A program made the translations under genes and the position numbers. A stretch of 64,000 bases of DNA, taken from contig PAPI01000036.1 of the NCBI GenBank assembly GCA_002708845.1, forward strand, positions 1 to 64,000, given 5' to 3'. Below, piece after piece: positions 31,169 to 35,258 of this stretch; positions within the stretch are counted from its first letter, which is position 1; each line of letters begins with the position of its first letter. The notes beneath the pieces were generated by a model, which was not told where the DNA came from, searched no databases, and saw only the letters and a program-made list of their open reading frames with translations. The stretch is from Leeuwenhoekiella sp. (GTDB lineage: Bacteria > Bacteroidota > Bacteroidia > Flavobacteriales > Flavobacteriaceae).

Positions 31169-31897
31169 TGCGTTACGACCATCTTCTTCGGGGTATAATT
31201 TATAAACCGGGTCGCTTTGCCAGTATTCCTTAGTATCCACATCAATTACTGAAAGTTTTCCGTAGAAAGCCGCACCGGTATCTACATTCCACACATTAGC
31301 CATTTGTGTAGGAACATCACGATTGATGCGAGTCACAGGAGTGTGCCCGATGTAAATCTCTTTATGATGGGTAAGGCGTTTAGGGTACTCGAGATCATCA
31401 GATTTTAAATTCTTGTCTAGACCTACAGCCATTTCCCAGAAGGTGCGGTCCCAGTAAAAGGCAGTGCTGTGATGCTCGTATTGAGGACCATTGTGATTTT
31501 GAAAACCGGCATGTACAAACATGCGATTTTGATCATCAATGTGATAATCCTGCAAATCTTCAATAAAGGTTTTGTGTTGTTCTTTTTTTTCTTCGGAATA
31601 GTTCTGGTAGGATTTAATAGTGCTTTTTCCGCCGTGATTTATCCAGGTTTCATTGGTTTTGCCGGTTACAAGCCAGTCGTAGACCAAGGCGTCGTGGTTT
31701 CCGCGAATAAAGATGCAGCTCTGAGTCTTATTTAATTCGATTAAATAATCAAGGGTTTGAGCACTTTCGCTCCATCCGTCCATATAATCGCCTAAAAAAA
31801 TGAGCAAATCTTCGGGGTGTACTTTTACCCGTTCTAAAACCTGTTTTAAAGCTTTTAAACCTCCATGAATATCTCCGATCGCCAGTGTGCGTGCCAT
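31166..31897 (-). CDS. calcineurin-like serine/threonine protein phosphatase
   Basis: Metallophosphoesterase of the PP1/PP2A-like bacterial group, 243 residues. The metal-binding motifs are complete: GDIHGG (Asp9, His11), GDYMDGW (Asp37) and RGNHDAL (Asn67, His68), with later histidines in FVHAGF and YIGHTPV. Substrate may be a phosphoprotein or a nucleotide such as diadenosine tetraphosphate. Its ATG overlaps the stop of the upstream AlbA_2 gene by one base (TAATG on the minus strand), so the two are translationally coupled. Confidence 0.9.
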   Translation of the reverse strand: MARTLAIGDIHGGLKALKQVLERVKVHPEDLLIFLGDYMDGWSESAQTLDYLIELNKTQSCIFIRGNHDALVYDWLVTGKTNETWINHGGKSTIKSYQNYSEEKKEQHKTFIEDLQDYHIDDQNRMFVHAGFQNHNGPQYEHHSTAFYWDRTFWEMAVGLDKNLKSDDLEYPKRLTHHKEIYIGHTPVTRINRDVPTQMANVWNVDTGAAFYGKLSVIDVDTKEYWQSDPVYKLYPEEDGRNA

Positions 31898-33033
31898 TAA
31901 TTGTATTTTACTTTACGCAGGATGCGTATGTTTTCTTTATAGGATTGATATAATTTACTGTCAAACTTACGTAGAAAAGGCCTGATGCTTTCCAGTTTTT
32001 CTAAGGCAGATTCAAAACCATTGAGGTAGCAAATGAGATACGTAGCCGGCAGATTATATAAATCCTCTGTTTCTCCTTTATTCAGCGTATCGCCCGAAAG
32101 CACTTTTTGTAGGATAGCATTGTTGTTATTGTAAATGTGATGCAGCACTTTTTTATCATACTGTGGGGGCTCAAAGACCAGATCACTGTCTATATGATAA
32201 GAACCATTTTCATTAAAATATAACGTGAGCTCTTCAAGCGGATAGTATTTATTGTTGCCCTGAAGGCCTAGCAAAACGTATTCTAAGATGGTAAAAGAAT
32301 CCTCGGTCATGCTGATCGATACTTCATCTAAAGCCGAATAAAAAATACGCACCTGTTCATTGATCAATTCAATATCGACCCGGCTAAAATAGGTTTCACC
32401 CTTGACTTCTTTTCGGTTGCCCGCCCAGCAAACCACAAACTGCTCTTTAAAAACTTTGTACTGCGTATGCAAATCGGCGTGTCGCACATTTATGAAGTCG
32501 ATTACACCGTCAAGCGTGTGCTCAATGCTGTTGTGCGAATGTTTCTCAATAGTAGCGACCAGTTCGCTATTAACGTCCAGAATTTCGCTTTTAAAAGATT
32601 TGGTCATGGAGATACTTCCGTCCCGGTAAAAGACTGTGCCGCCCCAATATTTCCAGATATTTTTTTTGAGAGCGGTAAGCTTGTTTAAAGGTCTTATGGT
32701 CACCAAACCCACTACAATATCTGCCGGCAGGTGCGGAAACGGTATGTTTTCGTAAGAAACAATAGGCGGATTATCCAGATACGCGTTGATCAGATTTTGA
32801 ATCTTGCTGTCGTCAAAAAACGGCACCCCAACAATCTCATTGCTTTCGTCTTCGACGCCAATAACGATATAACTGTTGTTCTTGGGATTGGAGTTTGAAA
32901 GTGCACAGATGTGTTTTAAAAATTTGGCTTTACCTTCCTTATTACTGATATCCACTTTACGCTTCTTATCATAAAAACTGTTCTCGTCATTATGCGCGAG
33001 TAAGTTTTTAATGAGAAGGCGTTTGTTGATCAT
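31897..33033 (-). CDS. AlbA_2 (Schlafen-type) putative DNA-binding protein
   Basis: Protein of 378 residues with an N-terminal AlbA_2 domain: KAKFLKHICALSNSNP, then the strand-loop IVIGVEDESNEIVGVPFFDD and the typical ADIVVGLVTIRP. These domains bind nucleic acid in many regulators and some defence proteins; databases often call them ATP-binding. The remaining 240 residues are not recognised. The start codon is followed closely by the phosphatase gene through a one-base overlap. A four-helix-bundle cassette lies 36 bases upstream of its start. Confidence 0.8.
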   Translation of the reverse strand: MINKRLLIKNLLAHNDENSFYDKKRKVDISNKEGKAKFLKHICALSNSNPKNNSYIVIGVEDESNEIVGVPFFDDSKIQNLINAYLDNPPIVSYENIPFPHLPADIVVGLVTIRPLNKLTALKKNIWKYWGGTVFYRDGSISMTKSFKSEILDVNSELVATIEKHSHNSIEHTLDGVIDFINVRHADLHTQYKVFKEQFVVCWAGNRKEVKGETYFSRVDIELINEQVRIFYSALDEVSISMTEDSFTILEYVLLGLQGNNKYYPLEELTLYFNENGSYHIDSDLVFEPPQYDKKVLHHIYNNNNAILQKVLSGDTLNKGETEDLYNLPATYLICYLNGFESALEKLESIRPFLRKFDSKLYQSYKENIRILRKVKYN

Positions 33034-33045
33034 TGTGTTATTGCA

Positions 33046-33066
33046 ATTATTATTTTTATTGCTATT
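33046..33066. repeat. left arm of a 21-bp inverted repeat
   Basis: Positions 33046-33066 are the exact reverse complement of 33489-33509 (21 of 21). The arm contains TTTTTATTGCTATT and runs into the 3' end of the four-helix-bundle gene, which stops at 33070. Confidence 0.85.
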
Positions 33067-33069
33067 CTT

Positions 33070-33459
33070 TTAATCAAATTTACTTCCTCGTTTTTCTGAT
33101 TTTTTCAAATAGTTTGAGAATTTACCGATTTGATCTATCAATTCTTGAGCTTCAGTATTAAGTTTTTGAAATGAATCTTTATCTAAGTAGTTTCGATCTA
33201 AACATCTTATTAATTGCGATTTTGTTTCACAGCACGAACCTTTTGCAAAACCTAAAAAGTTGATAAATTCCTTGTTACCTCCTCTTCCAAATCCCTCTGC
33301 AATATTATCCATTATAGATCCAGAAGAGGCATTTATTTGATTCCTAAGTTCAAAATCCTGTTTCAATTCTGTAGTTTGAATAATTTCCCAAACATTTTGA
33401 GAGAGCAAACGAGCTTTCTTGAAAACCTCAAGGTCTTCAAATGAATTGTAATGTGCCAT
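33070..33459 (-). CDS. four-helix-bundle protein (S23/IVP family)
   Basis: Small helical protein of 129 residues from the family of 23S rRNA intervening-sequence proteins and diversity-generating-retroelement Avd proteins. Family marks are FEDLEVFKKARLLSQNVW at the start, QINASSGSIMDNIAEGFGR in the middle and FLGFAKGSCCETKSQLIR. The ATG at 33459 (MAHYNSFEDL) fits better than 33477. No rRNA or reverse transcriptase is nearby. Hand count over 33121-33360 gives 76 GC of 240 bases (about 32 percent), lower than sampled neighbours (38-47 percent), and a 21-bp perfect inverted repeat flanks it: a cassette-like insertion. Confidence 0.88.
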   Translation of the reverse strand: MAHYNSFEDLEVFKKARLLSQNVWEIIQTTELKQDFELRNQINASSGSIMDNIAEGFGRGGNKEFINFLGFAKGSCCETKSQLIRCLDRNYLDKDSFQKLNTEAQELIDQIGKFSNYLKKSEKRGSKFD

Positions 33460-33488
33460 CACAGAATACTTTATCAAAAAGTAATAAT

Positions 33489-33509
33489 AATAGCAATAAA
33501 AATAATAAT
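33489..33509. repeat. right arm of a 21-bp inverted repeat
   Basis: Exact reverse complement of 33046-33066. It lies between the end of the SDR gene (33512) and the start of the four-helix-bundle gene (33459). If read as part of one minus-strand transcript, the two arms could pair and put the whole small gene in the loop. Confidence 0.85.
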
Positions 33510-33511
33510 AG

Positions 33512-34267
33512 TTATTGCTTATTCACGACCGTACTCGAAGCCTGGTCCACACTCATAACCACAAGATCGGCAATATTCACATGGTAAGGTCTGGTAACCA
33601 CAAAATGAATGATGTCTGCAACGTCTTCAGCCTGTAGTGGTTTAAAACCCTGGTAGACTTTATCGGCTTTTTCAGAGTCTCCTTTAAAGCGCACATCGCT
33701 GAATTCGGTTTCTACCATTCCCGGATTTACTGCTCCCACGCGTATATTGTATCCATTCAAATCGAGTCGCATCCCCTGATTGATGGCGTCTACCGCGTGT
33801 TTACTGGCACAGTAAACATTGCCTTTGGGATAAACTTCTTTTCCGGCAGTAGAGCCAATATTGATGATATGACCACTGTTTGCCTTGATCATTTTTGGGA
33901 TGATAACATCGCTTACATACAGCAAACCTTTTACATTGATGTCGAGCATTGCGTCCCAATCATCAGTGCTACCATCCTGAATAGGATCAAGACCGTGAGC
34001 ATTACCTGCATTATTGATAAGGATGTCTATTTGCTGAAAATCTTCAGGCAAACCAGATATAGCTTGCTGCACCGCTTTCTTGTCACGAACGTCAAAATTT
34101 AAGGTGTGAACCTTAACACGCTTGCTCAAAGCCCCTTGAAGTACATCCAGACGATCCTGCCTTCTTCCACAGAGAATAAGATTGATTCCGTTTGCTGCGA
34201 AATGCGTTGCAGTTGCTTTACCAATCCCGCTGGTGGCACCGGTTATAAATGCTGTTTTTGTTTTCAT
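33512..34267 (-). CDS. short-chain dehydrogenase (YdfG-like)
   Basis: NAD(P)-dependent short-chain dehydrogenase of 251 residues. It has the cofactor loop TGATSGIG (residues 9-16), NNAGNAHG, and the catalytic set Ser139, Tyr152 and Lys156 (GSTAG and YCASK). The overall sequence, including AVNPGMVETEFSDVRFKGD and the DVADIIHFVVTRP end, is close to the YdfG branch that acts on 3-hydroxy acids such as serine and on malonic semialdehyde. The ATG at 34267 is preferred to 34288. Confidence 0.92.
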   Translation of the reverse strand: MKTKTAFITGATSGIGKATATHFAANGINLILCGRRQDRLDVLQGALSKRVKVHTLNFDVRDKKAVQQAISGLPEDFQQIDILINNAGNAHGLDPIQDGSTDDWDAMLDINVKGLLYVSDVIIPKMIKANSGHIINIGSTAGKEVYPKGNVYCASKHAVDAINQGMRLDLNGYNIRVGAVNPGMVETEFSDVRFKGDSEKADKVYQGFKPLQAEDVADIIHFVVTRPYHVNIADLVVMSVDQASSTVVNKQ

Positions 34268-34418
34268 AAATTTAATTTTTTTAGTCAAATGAAAAATAAG
34301 GTTTTACCTACGCTGCGCTCCTTAAAGCAATACTAAACTTCGTTAATTGCCGTTAAAGGATTTGATAATGAGCCCTAGGCACAACATCTTTGGGAAATCT
34401 AATCTTAAAAATTAAACA

Positions 34419-35258
34419 ATGAAAACTATATTTAAATTAAGTATGCTATTTGTAGCATTTATAGCATTCACTTCCTGTAGTGATGATTCTAATTCTTCTG
34501 AACGCGGAACTGCAGGTATGTCCCTGAGACTGGTAGATGGTCCTGGCGATTATGATCACGTTTTTATCGATGTGGAAGCAGTTGTTGTTAAATATAACGA
34601 GGACTTTGATGATAACGATGATGCAACAGACGATGATGACTTTGAAAGAGATGAGTACGAATTGCTTGTAGACCCAGAAATTTATGACCTTCTTGAGTTA
34701 ACCGGTGGTTCTTATGCTTTGCTTGCTGATGAAAATATTCCCGCTGGAGCTATCAATCAGATTAGACTTATCTTAGGTTCAGATAATACCGTGGTTGTGG
34801 ATGGTCAGGCATATCCACTTCAAACCCCCAGTGCACAACAATCGGGTTTAAAAGTTCAGTTTAACCAGAATCTTGAAGCTGGTGTATTTTATACTGTAGT
34901 ACTCGATTTTGATGTTAAAAAATCAATTGTTACACAAGGCAACGGGAGTTACCTACTTAAACCTGTAATTCGGGCAAGTGCTATTGAAGCAACCGGTGCA
35001 ATTTCGGGTAGTGTATTTACTACTGGCGATGTAGTCATTCCTGCTACCGTGAGTACTTTAGTAGGTGGTACCGAAGTTTCTACCTCGACCAATGCCGATG
35101 GAGATTTTGAATTAGTAGGCTTACCTGAAGGAAATTATGATTTGACTGTAAGAGCTGAAATTACTGAAGGTGTTATCACTACTTTTATTGTGGAAGATGT
35201 TACCGTAGAAAACGGGGAGACAACAAGTGCTGGTGTAATCACTGTCGTCGAAGAATAA
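34419..35258 (+). CDS. DUF4382 lipoprotein with carboxypeptidase-regulatory-like domain
   Basis: Predicted surface lipoprotein, 279 residues: signal with lipobox (AFTSC), a DUF4382 beta-sandwich (about residues 33-185, LVDGPGDYDHVFIDVEAVVV and IPAGAINQIRLILG), including an acidic stretch with many Asp (about 65-85), then a C-terminal carboxypeptidase-regulatory-like domain (GAISGSVFTTGDVVIPATVS, FELVGLPEGNYDLTV). The two-domain order is common in Bacteroidota; function unknown, probably binding or adhesion. Monocistronic with a terminator. Confidence 0.88.
   Translation: MKTIFKLSMLFVAFIAFTSCSDDSNSSERGTAGMSLRLVDGPGDYDHVFIDVEAVVVKYNEDFDDNDDATDDDDFERDEYELLVDPEIYDLLELTGGSYALLADENIPAGAINQIRLILGSDNTVVVDGQAYPLQTPSAQQSGLKVQFNQNLEAGVFYTVVLDFDVKKSIVTQGNGSYLLKPVIRASAIEATGAISGSVFTTGDVVIPATVSTLVGGTEVSTSTNADGDFELVGLPEGNYDLTVRAEITEGVITTFIVEDVTVENGETTSAGVITVVEE

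Follow-up and report, generated by a model that had tools for sequence, protein, structure and literature searches.

The cassette and its neighbours

The window, a stretch of 64,000 nt of Leeuwenhoekiella sp. DNA (contig PAPI01000036.1), contains a small gene framed by two inverted arms in the spacer between a short-chain dehydrogenase (SDR) gene and a gene for an SLFN/AlbA_2 and DUF5929 protein (Table 1). All three genes share one direction, on the minus strand. The AlbA_2/DUF5929 gene is present in all 13 members of the genus, with the SDR gene upstream.

Table 1. Features of the cassette and its host genes in the window
Feature	Position	Strand	Remarks
SDR (short-chain dehydrogenase), upstream host gene	33512..34267	-	PF00106, E 6.9e-55 for 33515-34264; stop codon 2 nt from 5' arm
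5' (left) arm, degenerate 6-nt repeat, (ATTNNT)n on coding strand	33489..33509	-	exact reverse complement of 33046-33066
FHB / 23S rRNA-intervening-sequence-type protein gene, 129 aa from ATG	33070..33459	-	PF05635, TIGR02436
3' (right) arm, (AATANN)n on coding strand	33046..33066	-	pairing to 33069 at 96%; absent with the gene in G001
SLFN/AlbA_2 + DUF5929 protein, downstream host gene	31897..33033	-	PF04326, PF19351; start codon 12 nt from 3' arm

The small gene is a member of the PF05635/TIGR02436 four-helix-bundle (FHB, or IVP) family. It scores 110.4 bits against PF05635 (E 6.5e-32; curated cut-off 33.8) and 105.2 bits against TIGR02436 (E 2.1e-30; cut-off 24), and these family matches are the basis on which the four-helix-bundle fold is assigned. 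The first-pass annotation had already placed the gene in the 23S rRNA intervening-sequence protein family, and it was right as well about the arms, which match as exact reverse complements at all 21 bases, and about its hand count of about 32 percent GC. The GC content is 31.0% in the FHB open reading frame (ORF) and 28.4% in the whole cassette, compared with 39.5% and 43.7% in the neighbours and 42.2% in the window. Pairing of the arms lengthens to 24 nt at 96% identity. When the + strand from 33030 to 33525 was folded as a single strand, the arms paired (z = -2.97) and none of 100 shuffles was equally stable.

The arms are built from degenerate units that we read as 6 nt, (AATANN)n. Their sequence is not unique, because further copies lie elsewhere in the genome: a motif search gave 24 matches in total including both arms, that is, 1 further exact copy and 21 near copies with at most 3 mismatches, and the reversed-pattern control gave 8. 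At six other genomic loci with the window arm motif there was no FHB gene, and none of the six matched the FHB flanks at E 1e-20. It had been suggested that the case for an element would fail if the arms were simple AT-rich sequence common everywhere; this holds in part for the arm sequence, but the control genes described below show that it does not hold for the matched pair. Thus, the unusual feature is the matched inverted pair framing an FHB family gene and not the letters of the arms. An 8-nt direct repeat (GCAATAAC) occurs at the cassette, but it may be part of the 6-nt repeats themselves and we therefore claim no target-site duplication here.

An Rfam scan of 32000-35000 found no family at gathering score, the window FHB protein had no match in a phage collection at E 0.001, and PADLOC gave no defence-system match for three FHB proteins. 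The nearest named plasmid matches were from Riemerella, at 48% identity, which agrees with placing the window genome and its relatives in the Bacteroidota (Flavobacteriales).

Copies across the Bacteroidota

Besides the copy in the window, its genome has two further PF05635 genes, for a total of three. One separates sufC from sufD and is framed by an inverted repeat of 33 nt at 73%; the other separates hisH from hisA, with a repeat of 20 nt at 90%. Each copy has a repeat of its own that differs from the others. The family is present in 42 of 60 relatives and in 157 of 198 genomes across the phylum. For a statistical comparison we used 86 loci, kept from 112 FHB ORFs in 31 genomes (phylum inferred) for being intact, distinct and provided with enough flank. 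FHB gene GC was lower than that of the flanks in all 86.

The arms were scored by aligning the 5' flank to the reverse complement of the 3' flank. The window cassette scored 22. The mean over the 86 loci was 14.1, compared with 9.2 for mispaired flanks; 54 loci lay above the 95% point of this mispaired null and 28 above its 99% point. With 150-nt flanks, a score of at least 13 was reached by 45 of the 86 FHB loci and by 1 of 370 controls; the latter were ordinary genes taken from the window and from twenty 20-kb stretches, and their best score was 14. With 250-nt flanks, 22, 3 and 1 of the 370 controls reached 12, 13 and 15, respectively, and when the 86 loci were collapsed to 41 syntenic sites the mean score was at least 12 in 29. 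Clear arms are not universal, since 32 of the 86 loci scored below 12. Because of these low scores, and because one mispaired null pair reached 44.5, higher than every true pair, a single arm score proves little. The score is also partly blind to arms that run into the FHB ORF; the plasmid locus L173, for instance, scores 9.5 with arms that are plain by eye. In a further phylum-wide set of 30 loci (from 33 FHB ORFs), 18 scored at least 12.

In the Bacteroidota the cassette is nearly always co-oriented with its neighbours. Both neighbours were on the same strand as the FHB gene in 84 of 86 loci, compared with 188 of 372 control triplets (51%), and 26 of the 28 phylum-wide loci with both neighbours known were co-directional. 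Flanking pairs confirmed with NCBIfam are sufC-sufD, hisH-hisA, atpA-atpG, scoA-scoB and sdhA-sdhB. Other pairs are those that we take to be fadB-fadA, fadA-acyl-CoA dehydrogenase, ffh-folD, adk-obgE and rfbB-rfbA. Additionally, an FHB gene has been reported between the genes for guanylate kinase and nicotinic acid mononucleotide adenylyltransferase in Flavobacterium columnare (PMC5524665). In a tree of the Bacteroidota FHB proteins, the sequences group mostly by site, across genera, so many of these copies are probably old; this pattern suits early insertions that were passed on and lost better than it suits frequent jumping.

Arm structure

In the 54 Bacteroidota loci that scored at least 12, the arms are degenerate tandem repeats, with a lag-7 identity of 0.60 on both sides compared with 0.33 after shuffling. 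The best period among 45 arms of at least 20 nt was 7 in 33, 6 in 7, 8 in 4 and 9 in 1. Bacteroidota arms have a median length of 26 nt. Left arms are G-rich (G>C in 38, C>G in 5, the rest equal) and right arms C-rich (39 versus 7). GC-rich matched arms exist too, for example at L111 and L165.

The arms are matched within each copy and different between copies. The 45 loci had 37 distinct arm consensus units, with the same unit in both arms in just 9, so that the two arms agree less closely than in the Nostocales loci described below. Of 60 within-site comparisons, which are non-independent, 44 favoured own over swapped arms.

Filled, broken and empty junctions in the genus

The first-pass annotation had expected an empty site at the SDR-AlbA_2 junction in close relatives, and had taken presence in all relatives as evidence against a mobile element. 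Among 13 genus members, the FHB gene at this junction is intact in seven (G000, G004, G005, G007, G009, G011 and G012), broken in two (G002 and G003) and reduced in G010 to a start fragment with arm traces, identified by eye. The three remaining genomes have no FHB gene. In G001, the expected empty site, the junction is clean, with 6 nt from stop to start codon and no arms; G006 has a different small ORF, and G008 a spacer of slightly more than 100 nt. The genes in G003 and G007 belong to another FHB lineage with 7-nt GTTGCAG-type arms, whereas the window lineage has (ATTNNT)n arms. Thus, this one spacer has housed two unrelated cassettes, each with its own arms.

We read 50 junction states at four junctions in the genus (sdhA-sdhB in 12 genomes, atpA-atpG in 13, sufC-sufD in 12 and SDR-AlbA_2 in 13). 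The gene was intact in 17, broken in 5 and present as a remnant in 1; 27 were FHB-free, counting the 29-nt atpA-atpG gap of G007 (L313). A near-identical 22-nt sdh spacer is common to five genomes and a near-identical 29-nt atp spacer to three, both with no arm. These comparisons show broken genes, arm remnants and clean junctions at the same places in relatives.

Some FHB-free gaps retain repeats. We scored 17 gap sequences, which stand for the 24 FHB-free gaps at sdhA-sdhB, atpA-atpG and sufC-sufD, and in seven of them a 24-nt stretch had a lag-7 identity of at least 0.70 (shuffle p 0.002-0.016). Such stretches occurred in 1.4% of the 60-nt regions upstream of 370 control genes. As these gaps keep 7-nt repeats, arm repeats can outlast the FHB gene, and some of them may also have preceded it. 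Scar-like 7-nt arrays are seen before the next start codon in the FHB-free junctions L317 (G004 sufC-sufD), L301 (G010 sdhA-sdhB) and L305, L313 and L314 (atpA-atpG). The FHB-free sufC-sufD gap of G004 folded no better than its shuffles (z -1.05).

A reverse transcriptase was considered as a helper and rejected, because RVT_1 did not follow FHB number in the genus. RVT_1 was found in 4 of 13 members. G003 and G004 have 8 and 9 FHB matches and no RVT_1, and G008 has RVT_1 and no FHB gene.

Cyanobacteria and Nostoc plasmids

Searches with tblastn placed FHB genes on cyanobacterial plasmids, including the arrangements cas6-FHB-cas4 and cas10-FHB-cmr3. At L168, L171 and L174 the FHB gene lies with matched arms within type I-D (cas6-cas4) or type III-B (cas10-cmr3) CRISPR operons; these genes are perhaps passengers and not Cas proteins. 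Among the first 12 plasmid loci, which include one Riemerella and one Azospirillum locus, 7 scored at least 14.5, L173 has the plain but partly missed arms mentioned above, and four (L166, L167, L169 and L175) had no arms. In the Riemerella record, L164, which is called a plasmid, an FHB gene with matched arms accompanies lepA and an iron-sulfur assembly gene; such genes are chromosome-like.

One plasmid operon could be compared in nine Nostoc copies that are 90-100% identical over 1201 nt, and in Halotia at 78.5%. Before its 288-nt gene, three plasmids (pC052_D, pNsp_a and pNPM1) have a filled junction, and four (pNsp_c, pC052_B, p057_H and pNsp_b) have a gap of 3 nt with no arm. At this junction p057_A has another small ORF and Halotia differs; the site could not be read in pC052_A. 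The plasmid pNsp_c is filled at the next junction (505 nt), which in eight others measures -1 to 4 nt with no arm; Halotia again differs. A third junction, after the 1542-nt gene (the L177 site), holds a cassette in pC052_A; its arms are (TTCGTAA)n and (TTACGAA)n, and about 200 bp of the target, counted by eye, have been replaced. Short repeats at the Nostoc plasmid junctions are ambiguous as target-site duplications. The FHB proteins at the first two sites are about 40% identical to each other, so these fillings are separate events. At a junction, the gene and its arms occur or are missing jointly, as a single unit.

The copy at the first junction in pNPM1 (L181) is about 180 nt longer than its homologues (a gap of 602 versus 420 nt). 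The FHB gene in it is truncated, and a second, small insertion seems to be the cause. The subfamily of L173 has AGTCAGR-type arms at three unrelated sites (L173/L176/L181; L184/L186; L185). One FHB subfamily thus bears one arm flavour at several unrelated sites.

A scan of genome contigs for the L177 subfamily gave 69 loci, nearly all Nostocales and one Haloflavibacter, with 51 intact and distinct genes among 79 FHB ORFs. In this set 47 of 51 loci scored at least 15; of the control genes in these loci, 2 of 96 did. The median arm is 35 nt, or five heptads, and lag-7 identity is 0.86-0.87. Own arms scored 27.8 and swapped arms 18.6, the own pair being higher in 43 of 51 loci. There was no same-direction bias (28 of 44, compared with 40 of 58 control triplets). 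In the cyanobacteria, L166, L170, L172, L222-L224, L227, L230 and L280 are antisense to both neighbours. Most antisense copies keep strong arms, for example L172 (nrdB-nrdA); L166 does not. Because Nostocales copies lack a sense bias and antisense copies keep their arms, transcription with the operon is not required for arm upkeep.

The two arms change together

In 41 of 47 Nostocales loci both arms have the identical consensus unit, compared with a mean of 13 and a maximum of 22 after shuffling; the loci are related, and hence we attach no probability to this figure. There are eight distinct consensus units, such as AATTCGC, AATTCGT, AAGTCGG and AAGTCGC. L189 and L258 each have a non-repeat insertion in one arm and the same insertion, inverted, in the other.

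Selection on a sense-strand RNA stem was considered as a cause and is unsupported, since G:U mismatches were not enriched over A:C in any set. Under loose scoring there were 188 G:U and 265 A:C mismatches (expected 189 and 238), and under strict scoring of three sets there were 37 and 49, 10 and 20, and 20 and 21, respectively; we saw no excess of G:U in either. Strand-neutral copying thus explains the concerted arms better than point-by-point selection on RNA, and both arms are probably rewritten jointly by DNA copying.

A probable mobile cassette in operon spacers

In sum, we think it likely that the window contains one copy of a mobile cassette that is widespread and about 450-500 bp long, in the order 5' repeat arm, FHB gene and 3' inverted arm, here set in an operon spacer. 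The first-pass annotation had raised the idea of an intervening-sequence-like element, relocated or mobile, in an mRNA context, and the filled and empty junctions in the genus and on the Nostoc plasmids support it. Taken together, these patterns indicate that gene and repeats form a little-noticed mobile element.

We have weighed this explanation against several others. The cassettes could be old and inherited, having entered early, descended vertically and been lost frequently, with little or no present mobility and with arms kept by local copying. The broken and remnant states at the junctions we read would fit, as would the finding that FHB proteins at one site are mostly of one clade across genera. 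However, unrelated FHB types share junctions in relatives (at SDR-AlbA_2, type A versus G003/G007; L003 versus L055/L068; L111 versus L102/L108), and one subfamily occupies several unrelated sites. Homologous Nostoc plasmids are also filled at three junctions of one operon, with different arms and divergent proteins at the first two. We therefore consider old inheritance an unlikely explanation.

It is also conceivable that the heptamer repeat, an STRR hairpin, is itself the mobile unit, moved in trans, and that the FHB gene is a passenger. Most tested arrays stand alone: just 3 of 30 TAACTGA loci have an FHB gene, all three on one G184 array, and many of the 30 are overlapping windows on the same arrays. 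Arrays without an FHB gene also occur at the same junctions. The filled and empty plasmid pairs speak against this idea, as their arms occur solely alongside the FHB gene, and so does the specificity of matched arms to FHB genes among the genes tested. Moreover, 86 of 112 FHB ORFs passed our filter for intact and distinct genes with enough flank, so the gene is not simply decaying baggage. This makes the idea improbable in our opinion.

Less probable again is that the FHB gene is an ordinary operon gene whose repeats form a regulatory hairpin, acting in attenuation, coupling or stability, with no mobility. The sense orientation beside co-directional genes would suit such a role, and the hairpins of cyanobacterial STRR sequences have been suggested to stabilize transcripts or to couple translation (PMC2670836). 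A regulatory part of the operon does not account for the empty junctions in close relatives, the GC content below that of the flanks in every one of the 86 loci, the unrelated host operons or the antisense Nostocales copies that are still armed, and we regard this role as very improbable. Finally, chance repeats in low-complexity, AT-rich DNA can practically be discounted, since the recurrence of the arm motif elsewhere in the genome is outweighed by the mispaired-flank null, the control genes and the GC-rich matched arms of other loci.

Our model of the mobile cassette addresses how it may be tolerated and how its arms may be maintained. We propose that the cassette is transcribed together with its host operon and that, as in rRNA intervening sequences, its arms pair into a long stem enclosing the FHB message. 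RNase III or another nuclease could cut the stem, and the cut would be tolerated because it falls between cistrons. We hypothesize that this rRNA-like mechanism extends to cassettes in mRNA spacers. At the DNA level, the concerted changes suggest that one arm serves as the template to rewrite the other, either by inverted-repeat template switching or by regeneration upon movement of the element. We found no transposase, reverse transcriptase or confirmed target-site duplication in the element. For the FHB protein, binding to the arms or to a hairpin-ended intermediate is most likely. The solved relatives 2gsc and 2rld have five chains per entry, and our guess is that each of the five heptads of a Nostocales arm corresponds to one protomer in an FHB ring of five subunits.

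A broader proposal, which we offer tentatively and would not ourselves back at even odds, is that FHB genes with matched arms are a distinct class of transposase-free mobile elements in mRNA spacers of the Bacteroidota and Cyanobacteria. Their arms would be rewritten in concert in each lineage, so that the design and not the letters is inherited; rRNA intervening sequences would be a branch that landed in rRNA, and some STRR arrays and hairpins would be scars of such elements.

The many filled and empty pairs, including Nostoc plasmids of more than 90% identity, make RNA processing, arm rewriting and movement directly testable. They also call for caution, since genes annotated as "four helix bundle protein" in conserved operons, including CRISPR operons, may be passengers and not parts of the pathway.

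Comparison with known systems

Like MITEs and insertion sequences, the cassettes are short and multicopy and have inverted ends. They differ from these in that conservation of the arm sequence does not extend from one subfamily to another, the FHB gene is the only gene seen and no duplication was confirmed. A distant likeness is to bAvd, the accessory protein of diversity-generating retroelements. The L173 FHB protein is a distant relative, at 33 bits against PF22296 (under the cut-off of 40), and the window protein gave no bAvd match at E 0.001. Unlike in such retroelements, the neighbours in the window are not retroelement genes, and the sole RVT_1 match of the genome is on contig C17, whereas the window is on C36.

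Degenerate heptanucleotide repeats that pair into a hairpin are also known from the P6b stem of the cyanobacterial tRNA-Leu(UAA) group I intron, where copy number changes and extra non-repeat insertions occur (PMC3488679). That stem belongs to a group I intron, however, and the passages on its repeats mention no FHB gene (PMC3488679).

The STRR sequences of filamentous cyanobacteria, whose function was described as unknown, can form hairpins (PMC2670836). In Beggiatoaceae, Cyanobacteria and Bacteroidetes, TAACTGA arrays are 7-nt tandem repeats in spacers, and those of Beggiatoaceae lie mostly right before start codons (PMC4679880); passages of another paper restate this report (PMC4853749). 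The cassettes share with them the 7-nt tandem arrays in spacers, and a 7-nt period is found in 33 of 45 Bacteroidota arms but not in the window arms, with their 6-nt units. The difference is that these reports cover arrays alone, whereas the FHB cassette has two inverted arrays framing a gene. The main text of PMC4679880 does not contain the terms "four helix", "S23" or "intervening", and searches of the open PMC library yielded no description of operons in which inverted heptamer arrays enclose an FHB gene. The idea that STRR arrays are always linked to an FHB gene was rejected on the count of TAACTGA loci given above.

Among the nearest known counterparts are the intervening sequences of 23S rRNA, whose common sites are helices 9, 25 and 45 and whose origin and function were called unclear in 2016 (PMC4990558). 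That of Coxiella is 428 nt long, with a 28-bp terminal inverted-repeat stem, GC below that of the genome and a patchy presence (PMC4990558). The protein family (an S23/IVP ORF), similar size, terminal inverted repeats, low GC and sporadic presence are all shared; the window cassette, too, has an IVP-type ORF within inverted repeats and is sporadic among relatives. In contrast to the rRNA elements, it lies outside rRNA with protein genes on both sides, and FHB cassettes have arms of tandem 6-8-nt repeats and occur in many copies at many sites. IVS-type genes in matched heptamer arms, in dozens of spacers with empty counterparts, thus link two puzzles, that of the intervening sequences and that of the STRR arrays.
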